Below, in pieces: positions 344 through 44,479 of a stretch of 44,479 nucleotides of DNA. Numbering within the stretch: the stretch's first letter is position 1; each line of letters opens with the position of its first letter. The translations under genes and the position numbers were made by a program. The DNA is taken from NCBI GenBank assembly GCA_003604975.1, contig QZIR01000053.1, positions 1-44,479 on the forward strand. Direction: 5' to 3'. This stretch comes from Desulforudis sp. (GTDB lineage Bacteria; Bacillota; Desulfotomaculia; Desulfotomaculales; Desulforudaceae). The notes beneath the pieces were generated by a model that was given only the letters and a program-made list of their open reading frames with translations, made no database searches and was not told where the DNA came from.

Positions 344-1396
344 ATGCTGGCCAAGGTCCTGAGCACGGCGGTCATCGGCGTTGACGGCTACCTGGTCCGG
401 GTCGAGGTGGACCTGGCCATGGGGCTGCCCGCCTTTTCCACCGTCGGCCTTGCCGAGGGCGCGGTCCGGGAGAGCAAGGACCGGGTCAGGTCGGCGATCA
501 AGAACAGCGGCTACGAGTTCCCGGCCCAGCGGATCACCGTCAACCTGGCGCCGGCCTCGGTGAAGAAGGAGGGGGCCGGCTATGATCTGCCCATGGCCCT
601 GGGCATCCTGGCCGCCACCGCCACCCTCAAGGCCCCGGACCTGGAGCGCACCGGCGCCATCGGCGAGCTGTCCCTGGACGGCGCGGTGCGGCCGGTGCCG
701 GGCATCCTGCCGATGATCCTCGCCGCCCGCGAATACGGTATCGGCCGCTTTCTGGTACCCGCCGCCAATGCACGGGAAGCGGCGGTGATCCGGGGCATCG
801 ATATCATCCCGGTGCGCCGTCTGCACGAGGCGGTGGAGTGTCTCGCTGGGCTCACGCATCTTGAACCGGCGGTCACCGACATCGAGGCAATTTTCCACGA
901 CCATTGCCGCTATCCAGTGGATTTTGCCGAGGTCCGTGGCCAGGAGTCGGCCAAGCGGGCCATGGAGATCGCCGCGGCCGGCGGCCACAATCTCCTGCTT
1001 TCCGGTGTTCCCGGCAGCGGCAAGACAATGATGGCCCGCCGCCTGCCCACCATCCTGCCCGGCCTGAGTCTGGAGGAAGCCATCGAGACCACCAAGGTCT
1101 ATTCCACCGCCGGCATGCTGCCGAGCGAGACGCCTCTTCTGGTGATCCGGCCTTTCCGCTCCCCGCACCACACCATCTCCGATGCCGGCCTGATCGGCGG
1201 CGGCCACATCCCCAGGCCCGGCGAGGTATCCCTGGCCCACAACGGCGTACTTTTTCTCGACGAGCTGCCCGAGTTCCGCAAAAACGTCCTGGAGGTGATG
1301 CGCCAGCCCCTGGAGGACGGGGTGGTGACCATCTCCCGCGCCGCGACCAGTCTGCGCTTTCCCGCCCGTTTCATGCTGGTGGCGGCGATGAACCCC
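344..1396 (+). pseudogene. comM: comM, 5' part, interrupted by the element
   Basis: This encodes the first 351 residues of a ComM/YifB Mg-chelatase-like AAA+ protein, a helicase that helps integrate incoming DNA during natural transformation. The N-terminal S5-like fold starts with [18 protein letters not shown]. The Walker A motif GVPGSGKT is at about residues 221-228 and Walker [10 protein letters not shown] at about 302-310. Translation stops at a TGA (1397-1399) created by the insertion, directly after AAMNP, where the family continues CPCGYFGD. Joining base 1396 to base 38523 restores that motif and a 511-residue protein, so the split is clean and potentially reversible. As it stands, the sensor-2 part and C-terminal domain are missing. 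Confidence 0.95.
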
Positions 1397-2880
1397 TGAC
1401 CATTCGTTGCCCTGTTATCATCATTTAAAAAAAAAGGTAGATAGTGCAGATTGACGGCCACTTCGTCTTTGTGGATGATGATGCTTTCTGTGATGGTTTC
1501 CACGATCTGACTTTGTTCGTCCCGTGACAGGATTGACCAGCGGGAATGAAGGTCGCGGGTTTCGGACAAGATTTGTTCGGAGGACAGGTTTTGGATCTTG
1601 AGGAAATCGATCTCGCTCTGGAGCTTTGGCAGCTGGTTTTCCAGCTGCGTGAAGCGTTCTTCAAGAGGCTTGTGCTTCCTTCCGAACCCTTCCTTGGAAA
1701 TCTGCCCGTCCATATAGAGATCGTAGAGCTTGTCCATCTCGCGGGCTAGATCGGTCTTTTCTTTCTTCAGAACCTCCAGTTGCTGAGTCTTTTCCTGGAT
1801 TGCATCATCGGCTTGGTGGATGTAGGTGGCCAGGTTTTCCTCGGAAATCAGGAAATCTTTGAGCTGTTCTTGGTAGATGGCCTCCAGGTCTTCTGCCGGA
1901 ATTTTGTTGCGGCACTTAAGACATGTGTATTTCTTGCTGTTGGAAGGGACATACATCTTCCCGCCGCAGTGGCAGAAGGTGAGACCGGCGAAAAGGTGAG
2001 TGGCCGTTTTTCTCGCTATTCTTTTGCCTGATTCTTTTTGAGCTGCCAGAATGGCGTTGCATTTTTCCCACAACTCCTCGGAAACTATCGGCTCGATGCT
2101 GGAATAGACCCATTGATCTTCAGGTTTGAATTTCCAGTGCTTGTTGTCGCCGGTGCTTTTGGTGTAATTGGCCCGGCGCAGCCCTTTGGCAATGGGATCG
2201 GTAAGGAGCCTTTCCACGGTAGTATCGGAGAATTCCGATCCGCTCCGTGTCCTAAATCCTCTTTGGTTCAAGAGTCTGGCCACGGTCTTCTTGCGCTTGT
2301 GTTCCAGAAACAGCTCAAACATAAGCTTGCGGATGGGAGACTCGTCAGGATTCACGATTAGACTTTTTCCTTCCCATTGGTAGCCGAAAGGGGCAGCTCC
2401 TCCGAGAGGCTTTCCCAGTTGCGCCCGGATCGGTACTGAAGCGGCAACTCGTTCGCTGATCTCTTCCCGCTCCCATTGGGCCATGGCGGCAATCATCGTG
2501 TAAAATAGCCGTCCGGCCGGGGTGGTGGTGTCGATGGCTTCCTGAAGTGAGATGAGGCCAGCCTCCGAAGAACGGAAAATATCCGCAATGTCCAGAAGTT
2601 CGCGGGTATTCCGTGCAATACGCGCGAGCTTCGAGAAGATGAGTCCCGAGATATGCCCGGACTGGATGTCCGCAATCATTCGTTTGGCTTCGGGATGTTC
2701 CAGGACGGATTTACCGCTCACTCCTGAAAGGTTGTAGTGCTCGACCACTTTCCAGTTCTTGGACTGGGCATAATAGCGGGCTCGTTGTTCATGATGTTCC
2801 GGGCTTTCGCCCCTGGCCTGGTCTTCGGTGGATACCCGAACCCAGATACCGACACGCTTGCATCTTTTTGATTCTTCCAT
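1099..2880 (-). CDS. large serine recombinase (integrase); C-terminal tail switched by integration
   Basis: This is the enzyme expected to integrate and excise the element. Numbering from ATG 2880, which has GGAGAG upstream (the frame also opens at GTG 2892): RVSTEDQ carries the nucleophile Ser17, [17 protein letters not shown] and [13 protein letters not shown] complete the resolvase domain (to about 150). A recombinase domain with [14 protein letters not shown] follows. A zinc ribbon has Cys303, Cys305, Cys320 and Cys323, and a coiled coil spans about 360-445. Element-coded sequence ends at residue 494. Residues 495-593 are translated from the antisense strand of comM, with no homology expected. 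In the excised circle the same frame continues for 146 codons into the HTH frame at 38084-38524. The gene is downstream of, and co-oriented with, the VirD4-like genes. Confidence 0.93.
1384..1411 (+). other. attL: comM/element junction
   Basis: comM sequence GCGATGAACCCC is followed by the TG core (1397-1398) and then element sequence ACCATTCGTTGCC. Together with attR this gives attB as GATGAACCCC-TG-TCCGTGCGG and attP as GGCAATGAAACTA-TG-ACCATTCGTTGCC. The attP arms are inverted (GGCAATGAA versus TTCGTTGCC, one mismatch), which supports the placement of the core at the centre. Confidence 0.88.
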
Positions 2881-2983
2881 GTTTCTCTCCACTGAATTGT
2901 TAAGGTGCCGGTAAAACCGCTTCCCCAGCTATCAGTTGGAATTGTATTTTCATTGGTCAGCCTTGGATAGGCGTCATTCTTTG

Positions 2984-7870: not shown

Positions 7871-8205
7871 ACCTCAATGATAATCGGGTGAAAGCGGAAG
7901 CAAAAGGCTGGTAATCCTACATTATTGTGGAAGAGACCAATGTGTTTTTTATTATCATTTTTTCGGTAATAAAAAAAATTTAACAACTACACTAAATTTT
8001 TCAAGTTATTGAATGAACTGTTCGGAAAGTAACGTAGATCTCTCCGAACAATTCATGAATCCAGCCAAATAGATGTGGCCTAGTGTATCTGCTGTTATTT
8101 AGTGTATGCATTCGTAGAAAAGTTTATTAAGAGGGATCAGTTATTAGAGTGTCCCAGAAAACGACTATTTCGTAAGCGAAAATATATTTAATCAATTTTT
8201 TAATT
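7871..8205. repeat. gene-free spacer with a 14-bp inverted repeat
   Basis: No gene is supported in this 335-base AT-rich spacer. It contains an inverted repeat: ATGAACTGTTCGGA at 8013-8026 and TCCGAACAATTCAT at 8043-8056, one mismatch, 16-base loop. No T-run follows on either strand, so a protein-binding site or structured RNA is more likely than an intrinsic terminator. It separates the transfer-type genes from the Ppx/Hsp70 group. Confidence 0.6.
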
Positions 8206-22791: not shown

Positions 22792-23268
22792 TTAGGTGTA
22801 TATATTACAAACATCTGTTTTTTCAGAATGGTATTTAGGCTCTGCAATCCATGGTTTAATTCCTGTATTATAACACCAGTAAACCATTCCATCTTTAATC
22901 CAGAAATGGCTACAGCATCCTTGGTTTTGCCAAACAGAAGGATAAAGAGTTGGTCTCCCCGATGTGTTTTTCTTTACTTTCCAATTTGGAGTATGAACTT
23001 TTTGGAGTGATAATGAAATAACCTTGCCACATCCGCAAGGACATTGAAATAGTGCCCAATGGGGTTTTCCTTTATATATAACTTCTATAAAATCTCTCTT
23101 ACCAACGGTATCGTTACTCGGTGTTTTGTTAACTATTAACAGTGAATCGAAATGAATATCAGGTACAGGTGATTTTTTTTGAATTGTAGAATCTATGGTT
23201 TCTTCCGGCTCTTGCCCGGATTGGTATTTCCATAATAATTTAATAATTCTTTGAAACCATTTATTCAT
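22792..23268 (-). CDS. DUF6527-type cysteine-rich protein of a ubiquitin-like operon
   Basis: This encodes 158 residues. The core WALFQCPCGCGKVISLSL, PTLYPSVWQNQGCCSHFWIKDG and MVYW match the DUF6527 pattern (CPCxCG, PS.W....C.SHFWI..G), probably a small zinc-binding domain. The N-terminal 50 residues are a helix and linker. Its ATG (23268) overlaps the end of the JAB-E1 gene by eight bases, so it is the last gene of the operon. DUF6527 proteins accompany bacterial multiubiquitin/E2/E1 sets; their biochemical role is not established. A substrate adaptor or ligase-like subunit is possible. Confidence 0.8.
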   Translation of the reverse strand: MNKWFQRIIKLLWKYQSGQEPEETIDSTIQKKSPVPDIHFDSLLIVNKTPSNDTVGKRDFIEVIYKGKPHWALFQCPCGCGKVISLSLQKVHTPNWKVKKNTSGRPTLYPSVWQNQGCCSHFWIKDGMVYWCYNTGIKPWIAEPKYHSEKTDVCNIYT

Positions 23269-24721
23269 TTCTATGTATTTCTCCTAGTTGAGGCATCTCT
23301 AATCTATATTTACCTTCATTTTTTAACAATATTGCATGAGTGCGGCAATATATACAATCTTGATCATCAATTGGTGCATTACTATAAATTCTCAAATTAA
23401 CAAAATCAGTCCAAATATTATCCTGTTGCAAATCTGGAGGAAGGATCCTGTAAGGCCTCACTAGATCCATAAATGTTGCAACTGCATTGTCGGCAGTGGA
23501 ACTTGTAAAGGGGCCTACTCCGGGAGCCTGCTCCCCGCCACCTATTAAATAATAATCTCGTTCAAGCGTAATGGGGTCAAGTTTTGCCAAGGCAGGATTG
23601 TCCCTGATGGCTTGTTCATACCTCAGTCTTTGATCGGTAACAACCCGTTGACAACGTAGACAGGAGCCGAATTCAGGGAGAATGCAACTGACTCGACCAC
23701 GGTGATCTCTTAAGTAGGGATGCCCTTCCGGGTCAGTATCGATTTTACCTGTTAATCCGACATCAATATAGACTTGAGCGTAATAATACATAGCCTGATT
23801 CATGATATTCCTGCCTGCCTGGTCATCCGTGCAGCCAAAAATGATATCTGCGCTTGAAAGCGCGTCAATGGCTTCCCCAGATTCATTTAGATAGGCGTTG
23901 ATGGCAGATATCGAAATGCCCGGCCTAACGCATGCAATGAAATCTGTCAAAGATTGCGCCTTGCTTTTGGTTATGTCCTTGGCGCGATAACCTCGCACGC
24001 GGTTCATGTTACTCTCTTCAAGAATATCGCCATCAATTAGAATTATTTCTCCAACGCCAGCACGAGCTAATAATGTTGCAAGTGGCGACCCGGTTCCCCC
24101 CACCCCAACAACTACGGCTCGTAATGACTGCAGTTTAGCATTGAATGGCTTTCCGAAAGCAGCTTCCTGGCGGATTAGGTCCCCAGCTGATTTATGAGGG
24201 ATAGCAATACCGTGCAATTCAATTTTGTCGCTAACTACGCAAGTGTGGCGAACATACAACAGTTTATCAAAATTGCTTCCGTGGCGAATTCTTGTGTGCC
24301 ATTTGCCATCAGCGAGTATCATTGCGACAAAAAATGAATTATTTCCATTGCAACCGGAAAGGCCATGTAAAATATTTTTCTCATTGTCTGTGTCGAGATG
24401 TGAAAATGCATCATGTCCACGCGGATGGCTGTGTGCGAAGCCAAGTTCTAACCTTTCAGTTTCGCACCGAAGGTAAAGTTCAGGTAATTTTCGTAAGTTG
24501 ATCTTGAGGTGCGTTGGTGAGCTTTCTAATATCCAGTCCTCGGACATTTTGATCACTTCCACGGCAAGAAAACGGTCAGATGATGGTTGTCCATGAACCT
24601 TTCTGGCTAGGCGACGAAACAGTATAATTGCTCCACGTTCGTAACCACTTGGATCCCCTAAGAGCCATTCCTTAAGCTCTCTATCGTGACTGCCCAATAA
24701 TGTGATACGGTGTCCAGTCAT
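23261..24721 (-). CDS. JAB deubiquitinase-like / E1 (ThiF) fusion protein
   Basis: This encodes about 486 residues from ATG 24721, whose A lies in the stop of the E2 gene (TAATG). The N-terminal JAB/JAMM metalloprotease domain has HSHPRGHDAFSHLD (about 97-110), an exact HxHPx6SxxD motif. The central E1/ThiF domain has GVGGTGSPLATLLARAGVG (about 206-224), LIDGD (about 228-232) and EESNMNR for adenylation. Two CxxC pairs (CLRC, CIYC) form a zinc site. It should activate the Ubl C-terminus with ATP and, through the JAB domain, trim or remove it. E1 and peptidase in one chain distinguishes it from operons that encode them separately. Confidence 0.9.
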   Translation of the reverse strand: MTGHRITLLGSHDRELKEWLLGDPSGYERGAIILFRRLARKVHGQPSSDRFLAVEVIKMSEDWILESSPTHLKINLRKLPELYLRCETERLELGFAHSHPRGHDAFSHLDTDNEKNILHGLSGCNGNNSFFVAMILADGKWHTRIRHGSNFDKLLYVRHTCVVSDKIELHGIAIPHKSAGDLIRQEAAFGKPFNAKLQSLRAVVVGVGGTGSPLATLLARAGVGEIILIDGDILEESNMNRVRGYRAKDITKSKAQSLTDFIACVRPGISISAINAYLNESGEAIDALSSADIIFGCTDDQAGRNIMNQAMYYYAQVYIDVGLTGKIDTDPEGHPYLRDHRGRVSCILPEFGSCLRCQRVVTDQRLRYEQAIRDNPALAKLDPITLERDYYLIGGGEQAPGVGPFTSSTADNAVATFMDLVRPYRILPPDLQQDNIWTDFVNLRIYSNAPIDDQDCIYCRTHAILLKNEGKYRLEMPQLGEIHRNE

Positions 24722-25134
24722 TATCTTGCGTCCGGTTTTTTTAAAGCCCATTCAATACGATCAAGGACTTTTTGAATATTATCAATTTTTGGCTTCCAGC
24801 TAGTGGGTGCCCAGTGACGTGACCATCGACAATATTCCTTGCTGTTATAATGACGTGGGTCAGCGCCACCAGGCACAGATATGTTAGGGATGGTTTTACC
24901 ATCAGTACGCACTAGCGCGGGATGAACCCAAAACATATCTCCGCCACTTGTATTGTAATCAGTCGGCGCTATCCAGAGCACCTCAACCTGATAGAGAATT
25001 TGGCCGTTATGTGAATATAGTCCGCCAGAAAGAGGAAAATTTTTTAGTATCAGAAATCGTTGTGCCTGGTCCTCTTCATGGTTCAAGCCAGCCTCCTGGA
25101 GAATTTTGTAATCCTCCTCGTTAAGCAAGGCCAT
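24721..25134 (-). CDS. Prok-E2_E-like E2 protein
   Basis: This encodes 137 residues from ATG 25134 (overlapping the Ubl stop, TAATG; a longer start at 25143 is possible). The blocks FLILKNFPLSGGLYSHNG, VEVLWIAPTDYN, GGDMFWVHPALVRTDGKTIP and EYCRWSRHWAPTSWKP match the prokaryotic E2 family E pattern (DMFW.xP...DG..P, then WSRH and W.P). Cys102 next to the RWSRH motif is a candidate acceptor for the Ubl thioester, but whether it is the active residue is uncertain because the family is divergent. It should pass the Ubl from the E1 to a target. Confidence 0.85.
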   Translation of the reverse strand: MALLNEEDYKILQEAGLNHEEDQAQRFLILKNFPLSGGLYSHNGQILYQVEVLWIAPTDYNTSGGDMFWVHPALVRTDGKTIPNISVPGGADPRHYNSKEYCRWSRHWAPTSWKPKIDNIQKVLDRIEWALKKPDAR

Positions 25135-25373
25135 TAGTTGCACCCGGCCGTAGAACTGGATTCCTGGCAGTAGAATTTTTCAATACCTTCTTGTGCCAGG
25201 TCAATTTTCTCATCATTTGTAATAAGGCGCCCAACCTTGCCTGTTAGCTTGAGATACAGGTCCATGCTTTCGGGAATACCGGCACCCACACTCCTTACTT
25301 CTGCTCCTGTGATAAATTGGTTGTGCCACTCATAAACGGTGTTCTCGATCTTGAATTTGTACTTTTTAGACAT
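25134..25373 (-). CDS. multiubiquitin-type ubiquitin-like protein
   Basis: This encodes 79 residues. KYKFKIENTVYEWHNQFITG, AEVRSVGAGIP and EKIDLAQEGIEKF match the bacterial multiubiquitin domain (beta-grasp; ends in ...D..idL...g.e.F). There is a single domain here rather than a tandem. The C-terminus YCQESSSTAGCN lacks a Gly-Gly end, so the conjugated residue would be Gly77 after removal of Cys-Asn, or another residue. The JAB domain of the neighbour is the obvious processing enzyme. It is the second gene of the operon and overlaps the E2 start. Confidence 0.85.
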   Translation of the reverse strand: MSKKYKFKIENTVYEWHNQFITGAEVRSVGAGIPESMDLYLKLTGKVGRLITNDEKIDLAQEGIEKFYCQESSSTAGCN

Positions 25374-27257: not shown

Positions 27258-27683
27258 TTGGCTGATACTCTTTCTCCTATCGAACGTAGTGAAAGAATGT
27301 CCAGGATTCGGAGCAAAAATTCGAGTCCTGAGCTTAAATTGCGCCGCCTGATCCATTCAATGGGTTTCCGTTACCGCCTGCATGTAAATGAGTTGCCAGG
27401 GACGCCAGACCTAGTTTTCCCATCGCGGAAATCCGTCATTTTTCTGCATGGATGCTTTTGGCATCGGCACGAAGGGTGCAAGCTCGCAAGGCTGCCGAAA
27501 TCCAAGCTTGATTTTTGGAAGCCAAAGCTCGAAACGAACAGGGCACGGGACTTGCTTCAACAGCAGCAATTGAGAGATTTGGGCTGGCGTCTTCTGGTTG
27601 TATGGGAGTGCGAAATGGTATATACAGAACGCATATCGACAATCGTCAGAAATTTTCTTTGTGAATCGGGCGGTGAAAGATGA
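27258..27683 (+). CDS. vsr: Vsr very-short-patch-repair endonuclease
   Basis: This encodes 141 residues starting at TTG 27258 (MADTLSPIERSERMSRIRSK is the usual Vsr N-terminus). PGTPDLVFPSRKSVIFLHGCFWHRHEGC carries the catalytic Asp of TPDxxF and the Zn-binding His/Cys residues. The C-terminal W..K...N..RD block is intact. Vsr nicks T:G mismatches left by deamination of 5-methylcytosine, protecting the sites methylated by the neighbour. Its stop overlaps the methyltransferase ATG (ATGA), so the two are coupled. Confidence 0.95.
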   Translation: MADTLSPIERSERMSRIRSKNSSPELKLRRLIHSMGFRYRLHVNELPGTPDLVFPSRKSVIFLHGCFWHRHEGCKLARLPKSKLDFWKPKLETNRARDLLQQQQLRDLGWRLLVVWECEMVYTERISTIVRNFLCESGGER

Positions 27684-28891
27684 AATCAGTTGAGCTTTTT
27701 GCGGGTGCCGGTGGTCTTGCCATGGGGATTTCATTGGCGGGATTCGAATCGCTTGCCGTGGTGGAATGGGACAAATGGGCCTGCGACACCATCCGGGAAA
27801 ACCAGAGGCGCGGATATCCGGTCGTCCAGGATTGGCCCCTTTGGGAAGGCGACGTGAGGAATTTTGACTGGGCTTCCATTCCTGTCGGGATCGAGCTTCT
27901 TGCTGGCGGTCCGCCATGTCAGCCTTTCTCTATGGGAGGTAAGCACAAAGCCTTTGGCGACAAAAGGGATATGTTTCCGTCCGCTGTGGAGATTGTCCGG
28001 ACACTACAACCGAAATCCTTCATCTTCGAAAATGTAAAGGGGCTTACCCGTTCGAGTTTTGCGAACTACTATCAATACATCCTTCTGCAGCTTGAATTCC
28101 CGGAAATCACGCGAAAGTCGCGTGAAACTTGGACGGATCATCTGCGCAGGCTTCAGGAAGAAAAGACTTCCGGTACTCTTCATTTGAACGGACTCACGTA
28201 TAATGTGGTCCCGACTCTTGTTAATGCCGCAGATTACGGCATACCACAGAAACGGGAACGTGTTTTCATCGTAGGCTTCCGCTCTGACCTCGGAGCGGAA
28301 TGGTCTTTCCCACGCCCGACCCATTCTTGCGACGGGCTTTTGCATTCACAGTGGGTAACGGACGAATATTGGGAAAAGCACCGGGTGTCTAAATCAAAGC
28401 GTCCGAAAGCGCCGGAAAAGGTTGTGGGCCGCATCAAGAAAATTAGAGGGATGAGCCTACCTCTCAAGGGTCATGCCTGGAGAACGGTCCGCGATGCACT
28501 GATCGATCTTCCTGATCCCCGAAAAGGGGCAGGGGCCTTTCATAATCATAACTTTCAGGATGGTGCTCGGACATATCAGGGCCACACAGGCAGTCCCTTG
28601 GATTTGCCGGCAAAAACCCTCAAGGCGGGAGATCACGGCGTGCCTGGCGGCGAAAATATGATGGTGATGGAAAATGGAGCCGTCCGCTATTTCAGCGTCC
28701 GGGAATCTGCCCGTCTCCAGACTTTCCCCGACGGCTATGTTTTCCATGGATCATGGACGGAGACCATGAGGCAGCTTGGCAATGCCGTTCCCGTTGCCTT
28801 GGCCCGTCGCGTTGCGGCTTCTGTGGCGGAAAGTCTTGTTGAAGTTGAAATGCGTAAAATTGGCAGCCTCAGGAAGAGGAATGCTGCATGA
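27680..28891 (+). CDS. DNA (cytosine-5-)-methyltransferase of an Eco29kI-type system
   Basis: This 403-residue protein has the C5-methyltransferase motifs in order: I VELFAGAGGLAMG, IV GGPPCQPFSMGG with the catalytic Cys, VI FIFENVKGL, VIII IPQKRERVFIVGF, IX to X SVRESARLQTFPDGY and QLGNAVPVALA. It methylates cytosine within the sequence cut by the endonuclease that follows. Both junctions overlap by four bases (ATGA). The variable region between VIII and IX carries the target-recognition domain. Site CCGCGG is inferred from the partner's family only. Confidence 0.93.
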   Translation: MKSVELFAGAGGLAMGISLAGFESLAVVEWDKWACDTIRENQRRGYPVVQDWPLWEGDVRNFDWASIPVGIELLAGGPPCQPFSMGGKHKAFGDKRDMFPSAVEIVRTLQPKSFIFENVKGLTRSSFANYYQYILLQLEFPEITRKSRETWTDHLRRLQEEKTSGTLHLNGLTYNVVPTLVNAADYGIPQKRERVFIVGFRSDLGAEWSFPRPTHSCDGLLHSQWVTDEYWEKHRVSKSKRPKAPEKVVGRIKKIRGMSLPLKGHAWRTVRDALIDLPDPRKGAGAFHNHNFQDGARTYQGHTGSPLDLPAKTLKAGDHGVPGGENMMVMENGAVRYFSVRESARLQTFPDGYVFHGSWTETMRQLGNAVPVALARRVAASVAESLVEVEMRKIGSLRKRNAA

Positions 28892-38506: not shown

Positions 38507-38512
38507 CTTGGC

Positions 38513-38535
38513 AATGAAACTATGTCCGTGCGGCT
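38513..38535 (+). other. attR: element/comM junction
   Basis: Element sequence AATGAAACTA is followed by the TG core (38523-38524) and comM TCCGTGCGG. The left arm of attP (GGCAATGAA, 38510-38518) is inverted relative to TTCGTTGCC at the left end. The comM reading frame resumes exactly at the core. Confidence 0.88.
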
Positions 38536-39005
38536 ACTTCGGTGATCGGAGCCGGGAATGCACCTGCGCCCCGGTCCAGGTGCAGCGCTACCAGTCCCGC
38601 CTTTCCGGGCCGCTGCTGGACCGGATCGACATGCACGTGGAGGTACCGCCGGTCAAGGTCAGCGAACTGGGAAACCTTGCGCCGGGCAGTACGTCGGCGG
38701 CTATGCGGGAGCGGGTGTTCGCGGCCCGGGCGGTTCAGGAGAGCCGGTTCGGCAATCACCAGGGCGTTTACTGCAACGCGCAGATGTCCTCGCGTCTGCT
38801 CAAGGAATATTGCGCGCTTGATCCGGCGGCCACGGCCATCCTGCACCGGAGCATCGAGCGGCTGGGTCTTTCCGCCCGTGCCTACAACCGGATTCTCAAG
38901 ATCGCCCGCACCATCGCCGACCTGGACCGGGCCGAACGCATTGATTCCCGGCATCTGAGCGAGGCCGTCCAGTACCGCAGGGCCGCCGCCGCCAACCTCG
39001 ACTGA
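38523..39005 (+). pseudogene. comM: comM, 3' part, interrupted by the element
   Basis: This encodes CPCGYFGDRSRECTCAPVQV, then YQSRLSGPLLDRIDMHVEV and the C-terminal Mg-chelatase domain, with SARAYNRILKIARTIADLD near the end. It is the direct continuation of the 5' part at 344-1396. In the integrated state it has only element-derived codons upstream (GRLEVFRMGNNLAMKL) and no good start, so it is probably not translated. A GC-rich hairpin follows the stop. Confidence 0.95.
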
Positions 39006-39193: not shown

Positions 39194-39859
39194 ATGACCA
39201 GTGCTGACACACTACTCTCCCCGGTGGCCCCTCCACAGGTGGCGCCCCCCAAGGTATTGGTGGTGGACGACGAGCCCGCCTTGCAGCAGGCCATCAAGCT
39301 GGCCCTGAAAAACGAAGGGTATGAACTCTATTTTGCCGGCAACGGACGCGACGGCATGGAGCTTTTCCGGACGTACAACCCGGATCTGATTTTTCTGGAC
39401 CTGCGTATGCCGATCATGGACGGCTACCAGTTCCTGGAGGCGATCACCGTCACGCCGGACGCCCTGTTCACCGTGATCGCCATCACCGGTCACGGGGTGG
39501 ACCGCGAGATTGAGCGCTGCTATCGCCTGGGAGTGGATTTTTTCCTGAAGAAACCGGTTTCCATGGTGGAAATCTGCTGCATCGCCCGCCGCTGTATTGA
39601 GGAGAAGCGACTGAAGGCGGAGCGGGAACGGCTGATCGCCAGCCTGCAACATGCCCAGGAAACCATCAAGCACCTCAAGTCCTTTCTGGTGATCTGCTCC
39701 AGCTGCCGGCGGGTGCGGGACAGCGAAGAACAGTGGCAGGAACTGGACGCCTACATCCGGACCCACACCTCCACCAGGTTTTCCCACGGCCTGTGCCCGG
39801 ACTGCATCCACGACCTGTACCCGGACATCAGCGACAAGGTTTTGAAGAGGATGAAGTAG
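39194..39859 (+). CDS. response regulator with C-terminal Cys-rich region
   Basis: This 221-residue protein has a receiver domain, PKVLVVDDEPALQQAI to LKKPVSMVEI, with Asp-Asp near the start, phospho-acceptor in LIFLDLRMPIMDGYQF (about Asp72), Thr in AITGHG and Lys in FLKKP. After a coiled coil the C-terminus LVICSSCRRVRDSEEQW...FSHGLCPDCIHDLYP is a small Cys-rich unit often linked to receiver or PAS domains in Desulfobacterota-type genomes, perhaps metal binding. There is no DNA-binding or enzymatic output domain, so it likely signals by protein contact. No kinase is adjacent. A long hairpin overlaps its stop. Confidence 0.9.
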   Translation: MTSADTLLSPVAPPQVAPPKVLVVDDEPALQQAIKLALKNEGYELYFAGNGRDGMELFRTYNPDLIFLDLRMPIMDGYQFLEAITVTPDALFTVIAITGHGVDREIERCYRLGVDFFLKKPVSMVEICCIARRCIEEKRLKAERERLIASLQHAQETIKHLKSFLVICSSCRRVRDSEEQWQELDAYIRTHTSTRFSHGLCPDCIHDLYPDISDKVLKRMK

Positions 39860-39890
39860 CTTTTCCGGCCGCTGCCGGAAAAGCTACTTC
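39853..39890. terminator. 16-bp perfect hairpin at the end of the response-regulator gene
   Basis: GAAGTAGCTTTTCCGG (39853-39868) and CCGGAAAAGCTACTTC (39875-39890) enclose a six-base loop. It covers the TAG stop and lies 17 bases beyond the end of the converging maturase gene, so it is probably a shared bidirectional terminator. Confidence 0.7.
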
Positions 39891-39906
39891 AAGTTCATCA
39901 AGTTTT

Positions 39907-41277
39907 TCAAGAGTGCAAGGTGGATAAAGGCAGCGCATCTACCAAATCGATCCGCACGCTGTCCTCTGGCCTCTGTCCTCTGGCTTCTGACATGGCGTCC
40001 TGCCGCACTGTGCCCTCCAGGGTCCGGTCGTAGAACTCCCGCCGGCAGTCCAACCCGATTTCGTCTGTGCGCTGCATGGCCATGTAGCGGCAGCCGCCGA
40101 AGCAGAGCGGCAGATACGCGCACGCCCGGCATTCCTCGTTCTCCCGCCAAAGGTCTCGGCGGCAAATCCTGGCCGCGTCCGCGAGCCCCTGCCAGAGATC
40201 CCCCACCGCGTATTCGGGATGGCCGATCATGGCCACGCACTTGAAGAGGGTGCCGTCGTGGTTGACGACCATGGCCTCATCCAGGTCCACCATGCAGGGG
40301 GAGGGAATCAGCCGCGGCACCGGGAAGCCGCGGCGTATCGCCTCCTCACGCACCGAAAGCGCCGCATCGGCCAGCCACGGCTCGTCCGTCCTCCGGCAGC
40401 CGCCGCTGAACTCGGGATTGGCGAAGGAGTCAGCGGTCTGCATGACCGGGTGGAACTGGACCTGGCCCAGCGTATCCGGCCCCAGGCCGTCGGCCAGGGC
40501 GAGATCCAGCAGTTCGCCCACCCTTGCAAAGTTCTCCCGGGTGTAGTTGCCGCCGAAGCCGATCCTGACCAGATCATGGCAGGCGCGGACATTGGCCATG
40601 ATCGCCGCGAAGCTTTCGCCGCCGTTCCTGAAGGGCCGCAGCCGATTGTGTTCGTCCGGCGGGCCGTCCACGGTCACCTTGGCCGCGTGCAGGCCGAAAG
40701 GCAGCAGCTCCCTCACCACCGCCCTGGTCAGGAGCGAGCCGTTGGTCACCAGGGAGAAGCTGAAATTGCCGCCGCGCTCCTCGACAAAGTTTTGCAGCGG
40801 CCCGGCAATGGCCTTGATCCTGTCCATATAGAGCAGCGGCTCGCCACCGTAGAAATCCAGGCGCAGCCGGGTCCGGCCCCGCGCCAGATAGCGCTCCGCA
40901 AGAAAGGTGACCAGGCGGCCGCAGGTCTCCTCGGTCATGGCCTGGCCCTGTTTGAGGGTGCCCTCGTAGCAGTAGACGCAGGAAAAGTTGCAGGCCAGGC
41001 CCAGGATCACCGAGACGTTCAGCCCCTCGTCCTGCCGGTTGATCTCGGTGAGCAGGTCGAAGACCTCGGCCCGCTCCGCCTCCGGGTCGGCCACCGCCAT
41101 GCCCAGCCCGGCCAGCTCCTCGGCATGGTCTGCCGGCACTTCTCCGGCGCGCAGCTTCAGTCCATCCTCGGTCGGGAGCAGGGCCCGGGCCGCGTTCTTC
41201 GTGGAGTAGAGAAGCAGATACCCGGGGTCGCCTGGCCAGGGGAAGATTTTCAGGTAGCGGGAAGGAACAAGGGTCAT
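39907..41277 (-). CDS. geopeptide-type radical SAM/SPASM peptide maturase
   Basis: This encodes 456 residues from ATG 41277 (GTG 41280 possible). The radical SAM motif LACNFSCVYCYEG (about Cys96, Cys100, Cys103) and FYGGEPLLY follow an N-terminal YLLLYSTKNAARALL segment that recalls geopeptide maturases. A SPASM region with CVAMIGHPEYAVGDL, CRACAYLPLCFGGCRYMAM and a last Cys binds auxiliary clusters. It should install thioether or related links in the peptide encoded 59 bases upstream at 41339-41461. Both are on the same strand and probably co-transcribed. Confidence 0.88.
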   Translation of the reverse strand: MTLVPSRYLKIFPWPGDPGYLLLYSTKNAARALLPTEDGLKLRAGEVPADHAEELAGLGMAVADPEAERAEVFDLLTEINRQDEGLNVSVILGLACNFSCVYCYEGTLKQGQAMTEETCGRLVTFLAERYLARGRTRLRLDFYGGEPLLYMDRIKAIAGPLQNFVEERGGNFSFSLVTNGSLLTRAVVRELLPFGLHAAKVTVDGPPDEHNRLRPFRNGGESFAAIMANVRACHDLVRIGFGGNYTRENFARVGELLDLALADGLGPDTLGQVQFHPVMQTADSFANPEFSGGCRRTDEPWLADAALSVREEAIRRGFPVPRLIPSPCMVDLDEAMVVNHDGTLFKCVAMIGHPEYAVGDLWQGLADAARICRRDLWRENEECRACAYLPLCFGGCRYMAMQRTDEIGLDCRREFYDRTLEGTVRQDAMSEARGQRPEDSVRIDLVDALPLSTLHS

Positions 41278-41338
41278 CACGTTCGCCGGCCACGGGGGCT
41301 TCAGAGCCGGGGATGGGGCTCCCCGGCTAATCGTGCGA

Positions 41339-41461
41339 TCATTTACCGTCGGTGGTTGTCATGCGGGCTGGGCCGGTCTTGCAGCAAGCGGCAGCGGCGG
41401 CGATCTTTTTCAGAGTGACGGGTTTGGCCAGGACGATGATCTTTTTGGTGGGTTTCTTCAC
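41339..41461 (-). CDS. geopeptide-like RiPP precursor
   Basis: This is a 40-codon gene missed by length filters: GTG 41461 with AGAGGTG upstream, TGA at 41339-41341. The product has a basic leader (MKKPTKKIIVLAKPVTLKKI, counting GTG as Met) and a core AAAAACCKTGPARMTTTDGK. The paired Cys in CCKTGPA is the signature I associate with geopeptide precursors. The pairing with a radical SAM/SPASM maturase gene directly downstream is the main support. The mature product and its role are unknown. Confidence 0.78.
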   Translation of the reverse strand: MKKPTKKIIVLAKPVTLKKIAAAAACCKTGPARMTTTDGK

Positions 41462-41828: not shown

Positions 41829-41866
41829 CTGTTTCCGGACTGGCGGATGCGCCAGTCCGGAAACAG
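41829..41866 (-). terminator. 17-bp perfect hairpin after the TonB receptor gene
   Basis: CTGTTTCCGGACTGGCG (41829-41845) and CGCCAGTCCGGAAACAG (41850-41866) enclose GATG. It begins eight bases past the receptor stop. A T-run is lacking, so it may act as a stabilising 3' structure rather than a strong intrinsic terminator. Confidence 0.6.
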
Positions 41867-41873
41867 GGAAAGA

Positions 41874-43784
41874 TCAGAACTTGAAGCGCAGGCCAGCCTC
41901 GACCCAGCGTGGGGCATTGGGAAAATTTGTACTGTAATATTGATCCTCGTCAGAGATATTGTGCAGGGCGATGAAGACCTCGCTCTCAAGCGCGCCCGGT
42001 GCGGCGAACCGGTAGCCGGCCACTGCGTCCCAGAGGAAGGTGCCGGTATCGGGCTCCCAGGTCATGCCTGCCACTTCCTCGTCCACCCACAGGTAATTGC
42101 CGAATATCTGGAAACGCCAGCGGCTGTCATCGTACTGGAGGAGCAGCTTGACCGTGGACAGCTTGTTGTCCTCGCCCTGGTCGGGCTTGAGCAGTTCGTA
42201 CATCCAGCCCGCGTTGACCGAAAAGTTGTGGAAGGTCGCGGACGTCGCCTCCAGTTCCAGCCCCTGGCGCTCATAATCGCCGTCGTTGACCCAGGCCCAG
42301 GTGTCCTGGTCTAATACCCAGACATCGGTGGCCTGGTGGTCGAAGAGGGTGGCTTTGAGCCGGGCAAAGGCGAATTTTGTGGTCTCCACCCCGGCCTGGT
42401 AGGACCAGATGGTCTCTGACTTCAGGGTGGGATTGGTGATATGGAACCAGGGGTCACCCTCAATAAGGCTGGGATAGGGCTTACGGAAACCGTGACCTAC
42501 ACTTCCCCTGAGCAGGGTGTCGCCGCTCAGTTGGTAGGTCAGTCCCAGGCTCGGGCTGACCACGTCCTCGTTCACCACGGCAAGGTGGTCGTAGCGCAGC
42601 CCAGGGGTGACGGTCAGCCGTTCCCAACGGATGGTGTCGTTGACGAACAGGGCCCACAGTTCTTCATCAAGGGTCGGGGCGGCATAGGGGGCCATCAGGT
42701 CGGAATCGTTGCTTTCCCGGTACTCGGTCTCCGCGCCCAGGACCACGGTCTGGGCCTCGCCGGTCCAGACCAAGCGGCCGCTGGCGCTGCTGGCCTTGCC
42801 TTCGTATTCCAGCTTGAGGTAAGGTTCTCCGGTGGACAGCCACAGCCCGTTGTCGGTCCAGGTGTCCTCCAGATAGTGGGCGGCCAGATTCAGGGTCAAC
42901 GCCTTGCTCAAGGGGGCGGTGAAGTCCAGGTTGGCATAGAAGGCCCGGTCGTTTCCTACAAAATCGGCATTCCATTCAGGCAGAGCAGCATACCTGTAGT
43001 CCGGCTGGCTGTAGCCCATGGAGCCCTTCAACTCCATGCCGGAAGCCAGGGGCAGATTGAGTTTGCCGTAGAAGGTCTCGCTGTCGAAGTAGCGGGCGTC
43101 GCGGATACCGTCCGACTCCTGGCGGCCGGCATAGAGGTAGTAGCCCACCGGCCCGGCGAGTCCCGCCGCGTCCAGGCGCAGGTCCGAGGTGGCGTGCTCG
43201 CCGTAGGTGCCCAGGAGGGTGCCCTTGGGCCGGGCCGTGGTGCCGGTGTTCTTGGTGAGGATGTTCACCACCCCGCCCAGGGCCGAGCCCCAAGTGGAGG
43301 AGGCCGGACCTTTGATCACCTCGATCCGCTCTATGATCTGTACCGGGATGGAGTTGGTCTCGGGAAAGTCGTAGCTGACGAAGCCCCAGCGCACTCCGTC
43401 CAGGAGCACCAGCACATGGTCGTAGTCCGAGCCCTGGATGAAAATCGACGACCTGCTGCCGAAGTCGGTGTGACTGCCGTCCACGAGCAGGCCGGTGACC
43501 CGGTTGAGGACCTCGGCCAGAGTATGGGCGTTCATCGCTTCGATCTCCGCGGCGGAGATGACCGTAACGTTCTCCGCAACCTGGCTGATCGGTTTGGGGC
43601 TGCCGGTGGCAACCTCCACCAGCTGGTCGGCCTCCAGGAACAGGGACATCTGCTCCAGCTCGGCCTGTACCTGCGGGGAGGCCTCAACCTGGGCGGTCAT
43701 TCCGGCCGCGGGCAGCAGCAGGGTTCCGGCCGTACCGGCGGCGAGCAGCGAATTTCTCCAACGGCCTCGAAAACGTTTTGTCAT
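41874..43784 (-). CDS. TonB-dependent outer-membrane receptor
   Basis: This 636-residue protein starts at ATG 43784 (AGGAGGG upstream), with signal peptide SLLAAGTAGTLLLPAAGMTAQVEA. The plug domain has VTVISAAEIEAMNAHTLAEVLNRVTG, SSIFIQGSDYDHVLVLLDGV, IERIEVIKGPASSTWGSALGGVVNI. A 22-strand barrel follows, ending in the aromatic C-terminus RFKF required for outer-membrane insertion. Members import siderophores, cobalamin, metals or heme with TonB energy. The ABC-type substrate-binding protein encoded divergently nearby may belong to the same pathway. The ligand is not predictable. Confidence 0.95.
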   Translation of the reverse strand: MTKRFRGRWRNSLLAAGTAGTLLLPAAGMTAQVEASPQVQAELEQMSLFLEADQLVEVATGSPKPISQVAENVTVISAAEIEAMNAHTLAEVLNRVTGLLVDGSHTDFGSRSSIFIQGSDYDHVLVLLDGVRWGFVSYDFPETNSIPVQIIERIEVIKGPASSTWGSALGGVVNILTKNTGTTARPKGTLLGTYGEHATSDLRLDAAGLAGPVGYYLYAGRQESDGIRDARYFDSETFYGKLNLPLASGMELKGSMGYSQPDYRYAALPEWNADFVGNDRAFYANLDFTAPLSKALTLNLAAHYLEDTWTDNGLWLSTGEPYLKLEYEGKASSASGRLVWTGEAQTVVLGAETEYRESNDSDLMAPYAAPTLDEELWALFVNDTIRWERLTVTPGLRYDHLAVVNEDVVSPSLGLTYQLSGDTLLRGSVGHGFRKPYPSLIEGDPWFHITNPTLKSETIWSYQAGVETTKFAFARLKATLFDHQATDVWVLDQDTWAWVNDGDYERQGLELEATSATFHNFSVNAGWMYELLKPDQGEDNKLSTVKLLLQYDDSRWRFQIFGNYLWVDEEVAGMTWEPDTGTFLWDAVAGYRFAAPGALESEVFIALHNISDEDQYYSTNFPNAPRWVEAGLRFKF

Positions 43785-44143
43785 GCAATGCCCTCCTTTA
43801 TTCTCATTGCAATTCATTTTTTGATTACCACTAATCCTCAGTTTTTTTCGATCTACGACCCCGATACCAACCCGACCCCGATTGCTGCTCCTACTTATTC
43901 AGTCTTCGCATTGGACACCAAGGCTGCCGTTCTCACATCCCGCAGAATGAGAGAGCTGTTTTCTCGGGATCGGCGTCGGAGTCGGTATCGGAATCGATTC
44001 TTAAAGGAAGAACCGGGATAGCCGACCCGACCGATTCTAAGTTGCTGAGGATTGATGGTAATTACAATTCATTTTGCGGTTCTTGCACTTTTTCGAACAT
44101 CCCGTATACTTATGATTAATAGCCAATCTTTTTAAGGAATGCA
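43785..44143. repeat. divergent spacer with degenerate six-base repeats
   Basis: At 43966-43996 there are five or so imperfect GATCGG/GTCGG/TATCGG units. CCCGATACC and CCCCGATT-like inverted counterparts are at about 43858-43885. Such low-complexity TCGGxx blocks are a common dispersed intergenic type. Promoters of the receptor gene (left) and the substrate-binding-protein gene (right) should lie here, but no clear -35/-10 pair stands out. Confidence 0.45.
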
Positions 44144-44479
44144 ATGCCGGGCAGAGCGGTCGTGAACAATTTCATCGCCGTAGGCCTTTTTCTGGTCATG
44201 GCAGTGGCCTGGCCGGTTCGGGCGGCGGAGATCACCGTGCTGAAGAGCGCGGTGCTCCCCCCCTACAGCAGCGCTCTTGCCGGCTTCAGCGAGGTCATCG
44301 CCCGGGAGGTCCCCAGTCGGGGGCAGAAGGCGATCCAGGCCCATACGATCACCACCCTTGTCCTCTCCGATGCGGCAAGTCAGGTGGAACTGCGGCAGCG
44401 GATCGTTGACGCCCGGCCGGATCTTCTGGTCGCCATCGGCAGCAGCAGCCTTTCCCTGCTCAAAGACATTCCCGACATC
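44144..44479 (+). CDS. ABC-transporter substrate-binding protein (partial, 3' end outside window)
   Basis: ATG 44144 is preceded by AAGGA. The first 29 residues are a signal peptide (NFIAVGLFLVMAVAWPVRAA). EITVLKSAVLPPYSSALAGF, then HTITTLVLSD and DARPDLLVAIGSSSLSLLKD match the ABC_sub_bind family start (periplasmic binding protein that reads V...P.Y..a..GF). It continues past the window. It is divergent from the TonB receptor gene. Confidence 0.8.
   Translation, partial: MPGRAVVNNFIAVGLFLVMAVAWPVRAAEITVLKSAVLPPYSSALAGFSEVIAREVPSRGQKAIQAHTITTLVLSDAASQVELRQRIVDARPDLLVAIGSSSLSLLKDIPDI

Follow-up and report, generated by a model that had tools for sequence, protein, structure and literature searches.

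The window, by which we mean the whole 44,479-nucleotide stretch of DNA analysed here, contains a small peptide gene and a radical SAM/SPASM maturase gene that form a new member of the named, unstudied geopeptide family. Gene neighbourhoods across relatives show that the geopeptide locus exceeds this precursor/maturase pair and is linked to a TonB-dependent receptor, a periplasmic binding protein and a histidine kinase (Table 1). We propose, with a probability of roughly 0.55, that the whole is a RiPP locus in which a Cys-Cys pair is modified and the peptide is bound by a dedicated receptor, sensed, and used as a secreted and re-imported scavenger.

Table 1 Features of the geopeptide locus, in window positions
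Feature	Position	Strand	Remarks
Response regulator	39194..39859	+	C-terminal CxxC...CxxC tail; convergent with maturase
Inverted repeat, near-perfect	39852..39891		Between regulator and maturase 3' ends
Radical SAM/SPASM maturase, TIGR04280 (geopep_mat_rSAM)	39907..41280	-	457 aa; actual start perhaps ATG at 41277
Geopeptide precursor	41339..41461	-	40 aa, GTG start; leader KIIVLAKP..., core CCKTGPARMTTTDGK
Inverted repeat	41829..41866		Directly downstream of receptor gene
TonB-dependent receptor, geopeptide-linked subfamily	41874..43817	-	Upstream of precursor, same direction; Plug and beta-barrel
PF04392-type (ABC_sub_bind) periplasmic binding protein, N-terminal part	44144..44479	+	Divergent; gene cut by contig end; 83 bits

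A sequence-only reading of this DNA had singled out a 40-residue, GTG-start peptide beside a SPASM radical SAM gene, and both open reading frames exist as it described. The gap between them is 58 bases as the frames are listed, not the 59 it gave, and relatives point to the next codon, an ATG, as the maturase start, which would make the gap about 61. Against the NCBIfam model TIGR04280 ("geopeptide radical SAM maturase", a hypoth_equivalog) the enzyme scores 509.5 bits, 109 bits over the cut-off of 400, and the next family reaches 144 bits. Pfam recognizes a radical SAM domain, and the protein carries the cluster motif CNFSCVYC (CX3CX2C) together with the complete set of SPASM cysteines; C97, C101, C104, C329, C348, C384, C387, C393, C397 and C412 are invariant among 38 aligned relatives, the window included. 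In the maturase tree the window groups with L012 and L084 (100/100), and among the 38 radical SAM matches in the bin it alone exceeds the TIGR04280 cut-off. These sequence comparisons confirm the enzyme as a member of the geopeptide maturase family. In three other loci (L059, L061 and L062) the maturase frame is longer, about 690-730 aa against the usual 430-450 aa, the excess lying in a C-terminal extension.

By sequence, the closest enzyme with a solved structure is CteB (5wgg, E 6e-16), and the maturase shares with the CteB/SCIFF ranthipeptide enzymes (PDB 5wgg, 5why) the radical SAM plus SPASM layout. However, it scores only 87.4 bits against the SCIFF-type model TIGR03974, below the cut-off of 425, and whereas SCIFF-type precursors have many spaced cysteines, the window precursor has one Cys-Cys pair. 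An AlphaFold model built from a three-sequence alignment is poor (pLDDT 52); its PDB matches, TigE, CteB and ChlB, agree with the sequence and add little. A search of plasmids, phages and viral contigs for relatives returned distant SPASM maturases of <30% identity, or none.

The precursor translates as MKKPTKKIIVLAKPVTLKKIAAAAACCKTGPARMTTTDGK, with cysteines at positions 26 and 27, and its frame is preceded by a strong Shine-Dalgarno sequence, aaagaggtgctccGTG. Near-copies of the peptide, MKKQKLIVLSKGVDPKEVAARAICCRLGPRRFMS and MEKKKLIVLAKGTDPKEIAVRAACCKVGPRRFKAW, occur in two relatives identified by sequence search, L012 (63% identity) and L013 of a Desulfobulbaceae bin (56%), respectively. 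Starting from the TIGR04280 loci of L013's phylum, we ran an iterative HMM and looked upstream of every maturase, which gave 37 precursors adjoining TIGR04280 genes; the sequence-only reading had named the absence of similar precursors beside homologous maturases as a finding that would speak against it, and it withstands that test. A purine-rich ribosome site precedes all 37, and 36 lie upstream of the maturase on the same strand, the precursor of L065 being divergent. In their alignment the Cys-Cys pair forms the only two invariant columns. The Leu and Gly of a leader motif, roughly [E/K]-x-[I/L]-x-V-L-x-x-G, are conserved in >90%, and the tail after CC ranges from 7 to 15 residues. The basic leader noted earlier is a property of the window's own subgroup and differs from most of the family, whose leaders are acidic (EIxVLDEG); the GTG start likewise sets the window precursor apart from the family, which it otherwise matches in the make-up of the adjacent precursor and the invariant Cys-Cys.

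An HMM built from the 36 relatives with the window left out, run on 1233 short window frames, picks the precursor alone (E 2.2e-9; next frame 0.067), which together with the TIGR04280 score bears out the earlier call of a geopeptide-like precursor and maturase. That call had also warned that the peptide is easily missed, rightly: no precursor model in NCBIfam or Pfam matches it. Ratios of pN/pS between related precursors are 0.13-0.57 (11 pairs), consistent with purifying selection, and count only as supporting evidence, given that saturation affects some of the pairs and none is long. On this sequence evidence the frame is confirmed as a genuine geopeptide precursor.

We clustered neighbouring frames and counted locus content by tblastn over 42 maturase loci. 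Three kinds of neighbour recur: TonB-dependent receptors, PF04392 binding proteins and histidine kinases with HAMP/HisKA_3 domains. The receptor homologue lies beside 36 of the 42 maturases; the six loci that lack it comprise four at contig ends (L012, L064, L071, L073) and two sub-cut-off TIGR04280 homologues (L079, L080). The binding protein is present in 32 loci and the kinase in 30, the latter being the softest number because it takes in other histidine kinases. Both of these genes usually diverge from the receptor, and in some loci the kinase is followed by response regulators. An MFS exporter of the TIGR00900/EntS-like kind occurs in 8 of the 42, and a sample of 42 flanking proteins yielded no further recurring partner. 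The same gene content appears in three gene orders across different clades, with the receptor either diverging from the pair or running in its direction, and the MFS gene inserted or not. Thus, the earlier description of "a typical natural-product pair" holds for the pair and undersells the locus, because the conserved unit also has the receptor, the PF04392 protein and usually the kinase. To our knowledge, this module is not part of the TIGR04280 family definition.

In the window, the PF04392 assignment of the truncated binding protein was made on its homologues, and a histidine kinase would be expected beyond position 44479. BLASTP finds regulators similar to the window response regulator in geopeptide loci L084, L072 and L068, and we infer that it belongs to the geopeptide module. 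Of the two inverted repeats, the one between regulator and maturase is likely a bidirectional terminator and the other, separating receptor from precursor, likely a terminator or attenuator; scans for sigma-70 promoters and for terminators returned no clear signal.

A search for the window receptor across 17 geopeptide genomes returned 24 matches over the full length (226-739 bits), other receptors in these genomes reaching at most 77 bits. Twenty-one of the 24 adjoin a TIGR04280 gene and two more adjoin a precursor, so that the subfamily appears nearly confined to geopeptide loci in the genomes searched. The best match lies at the geopeptide locus in all genomes but one, and the exceptions to the score order are G704 C82 and G626 C6. 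On the former (L198) a receptor beside a kinase, with no precursor or maturase, outscores the copy at that genome's geopeptide locus. On the latter (L200) a receptor, precursor and MFS gene lie at a contig end without an adjacent maturase. A third locus, L199 (G556 C22), has a receptor and binding protein adjoining a geopeptide-like precursor (7901-8014) in which CIC replaces CC, again without an adjacent maturase.

The contig and the bin that holds it disagree on the host. TIGR04280 is over cut-off in 31 of 395 genomes of L013's phylum and, with four candidates scored per genome, in 1 of 398 genomes of the bin's own phylum, the window alone. The bin's RpoB gives a two-part match that lacks model positions 893-986, a pattern shared by its own-phylum relatives; in geopeptide-bearing genomes the RpoB matches that are complete run unbroken. 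The split yifB of the window groups with Desulfobulbales-like genomes (97/96 with G491, 100/98 for a six-row clade), and a second, intact yifB on contig 2 (C2) of the bin groups with the bin's genus (100/100). Ten relatives searched yielded no TonB plug, and the bin's only TonB plug/receptor is on the window contig (C26 of G000). Tetranucleotide composition gave no separation of the flank by itself. Because of the foreign yifB lineage, the second intact yifB, the single TonB receptor and the rarity of TIGR04280, the contig is most likely Desulfobacterota (Desulfobulbales-like) DNA in the wrong bin. These host names follow from the Desulfobulbaceae of L013, which we take to belong to Desulfobulbales/Desulfobacterota. 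We considered whether the pair had been transferred laterally to the lineage of the bin, and rejected this in favour of mis-binning because yifB, which shares the contig, is foreign in lineage too and duplicated. The Desulfobacterota-like host proposed earlier therefore stands for the contig, by its yifB and maturase trees, and not for the bin, which is of another phylum.

The window yifB is split into 344-1399 and about 38508-39005 by an island of about 37 kb (1400-38490) inserted in comM/yifB, with a GC content of 43% against 61-67% in the flanks. A large serine recombinase accompanies it (1099-2892, minus strand). The island contains an E1-like/JAB protein (22792-25143; PADLOC E1-E2, 1e-16) with a small upstream partner, as well as Vsr (27258-27683) and Dcm-like (27680-28891) genes, which are possible defence cargo. 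The yifB of G605 is also split (C29:582266-588912 and C42:53865-54326; L147, L149, L153), suggesting that insertions in comM/yifB recur.

For the function of the locus, we suggest that the TIGR04280 enzyme would recognise the leader strand [E/K]xIxVLxxG and oxidatively modify the invariant core Cys-Cys. The likeliest chemistry would be a thioether cross-link or another Cys-based change. Thioether is a first guess because the nearest solved enzyme is CteB, a Cys thioether-forming enzyme; a thiazole-like or other Cys change could also occur in the core. The product, a short mature peptide with cysteines (or a complex containing it), would be the ligand of the dedicated TonB-dependent receptor, with periplasmic sensing probably falling to the PF04392 protein and the histidine kinase. 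The receptor barrel has no close counterpart among solved receptors and thus gives no clue to the ligand. Taken as a whole, the simplest role may be the scavenging of metal or nutrients by a peptide that is exported and taken up again, as methanobactin suggests by analogy.

Methanobactin, a small peptide with cysteines that is made ribosomally, is associated with a TonB-dependent transporter and in some cases with an exporter (PMC3621798). It shares with the geopeptide the combination of a ribosomal Cys peptide and a TonB-dependent receptor; however, it is made by MbnB/MbnC and not by a radical SAM enzyme, and a Pfam scan found no MbnB/MbnC (DUF692-type) genes among the window neighbours up to the contig end at 44479. 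A TonB-dependent transporter also occurs in a radical SAM RiPP cluster of Bacteroides, the ItfA type (PMC11002830), which, unlike the geopeptide locus, has a YcaO-like protein, a C39 exporter and an Ile-Thr-Phe core. The metallophore role is hypothetical, since no metal signal was found: no metal-related gene turned up, and seven intergenic regions contained no Fur box, the region upstream of the receptor scoring no better than shuffles.

Because the locus keeps its receptor, binding protein and kinase, the linkage favours a role in uptake or sensing, metallophore-like or signal, over a bacteriocin or ordinary antibiotic. The wording of the sequence-only reading pointed to a bacteriocin-like natural product of the sactipeptide or ranthipeptide class, with which a CteB-related SPASM maturase and cysteines in the core agree; yet the 42 flanking proteins include no recurring immunity gene, C39 peptidase or ABC exporter, and what is conserved instead is the receptor, binding protein and kinase, making this product distinctly improbable. 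The same flanking proteins show no recurring family of dedicated exporter or leader peptidase, MFS genes being limited to their 8 loci. The want of a consistent exporter would suit a redox cofactor or metal-handling peptide that stays inside the cell or periplasm while the receptor imports an unrelated ligand, as would the capacity of vicinal cysteines to act as redox and metal ligands and the receptor and kinase of L198, which exist without a precursor. Against it, the receptor subfamily is nearly restricted to geopeptide loci across the 17 genomes, and L199 retains receptor, binding protein and CIC peptide with no maturase beside them; we regard such a peptide as rather improbable.

Receptor, binding protein and kinase would fit scavenging and signalling alike. 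The modified peptide could be a pheromone that passes through the TonB receptor to the periplasm, is bound by the PF04392 protein and is read by the kinase. Binding protein and kinase are indeed the usual neighbours, about 2-5 kb off, no ABC permease recurs with the binding protein, and some loci have response regulators after the kinase. However, peptide signals, as general knowledge has it, seldom need energised outer-membrane import, and the C-terminal tails after CC vary in length across the family, so that we consider a pheromone unlikely. The secreted and re-imported scavenger is our preferred reading, although the lack of a metal signal, of a consistent exporter or leader peptidase and of a recurring permease for the binding protein, together with the receptor copy of L198, speaks against it. 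More broadly, and more tentatively, geopeptides may be widespread, undescribed radical-SAM-made peptide metallophores (or signals) of Desulfobacterota, modified at vicinal cysteines and with their own receptor, binding protein and kinase.

In the open-access full-text literature searched, no paper mentions "geopeptide" or its accession, and we did not find the receptor-centred module described there. For this family a name and an HMM exist, and the precursor model built from relatives supplies what automatic annotation lacks. Through its link to a single receptor subfamily and a sensor, what was formerly a "RiPP of unknown function" becomes a testable uptake/sensing system in anaerobic metal-cycling bacteria.
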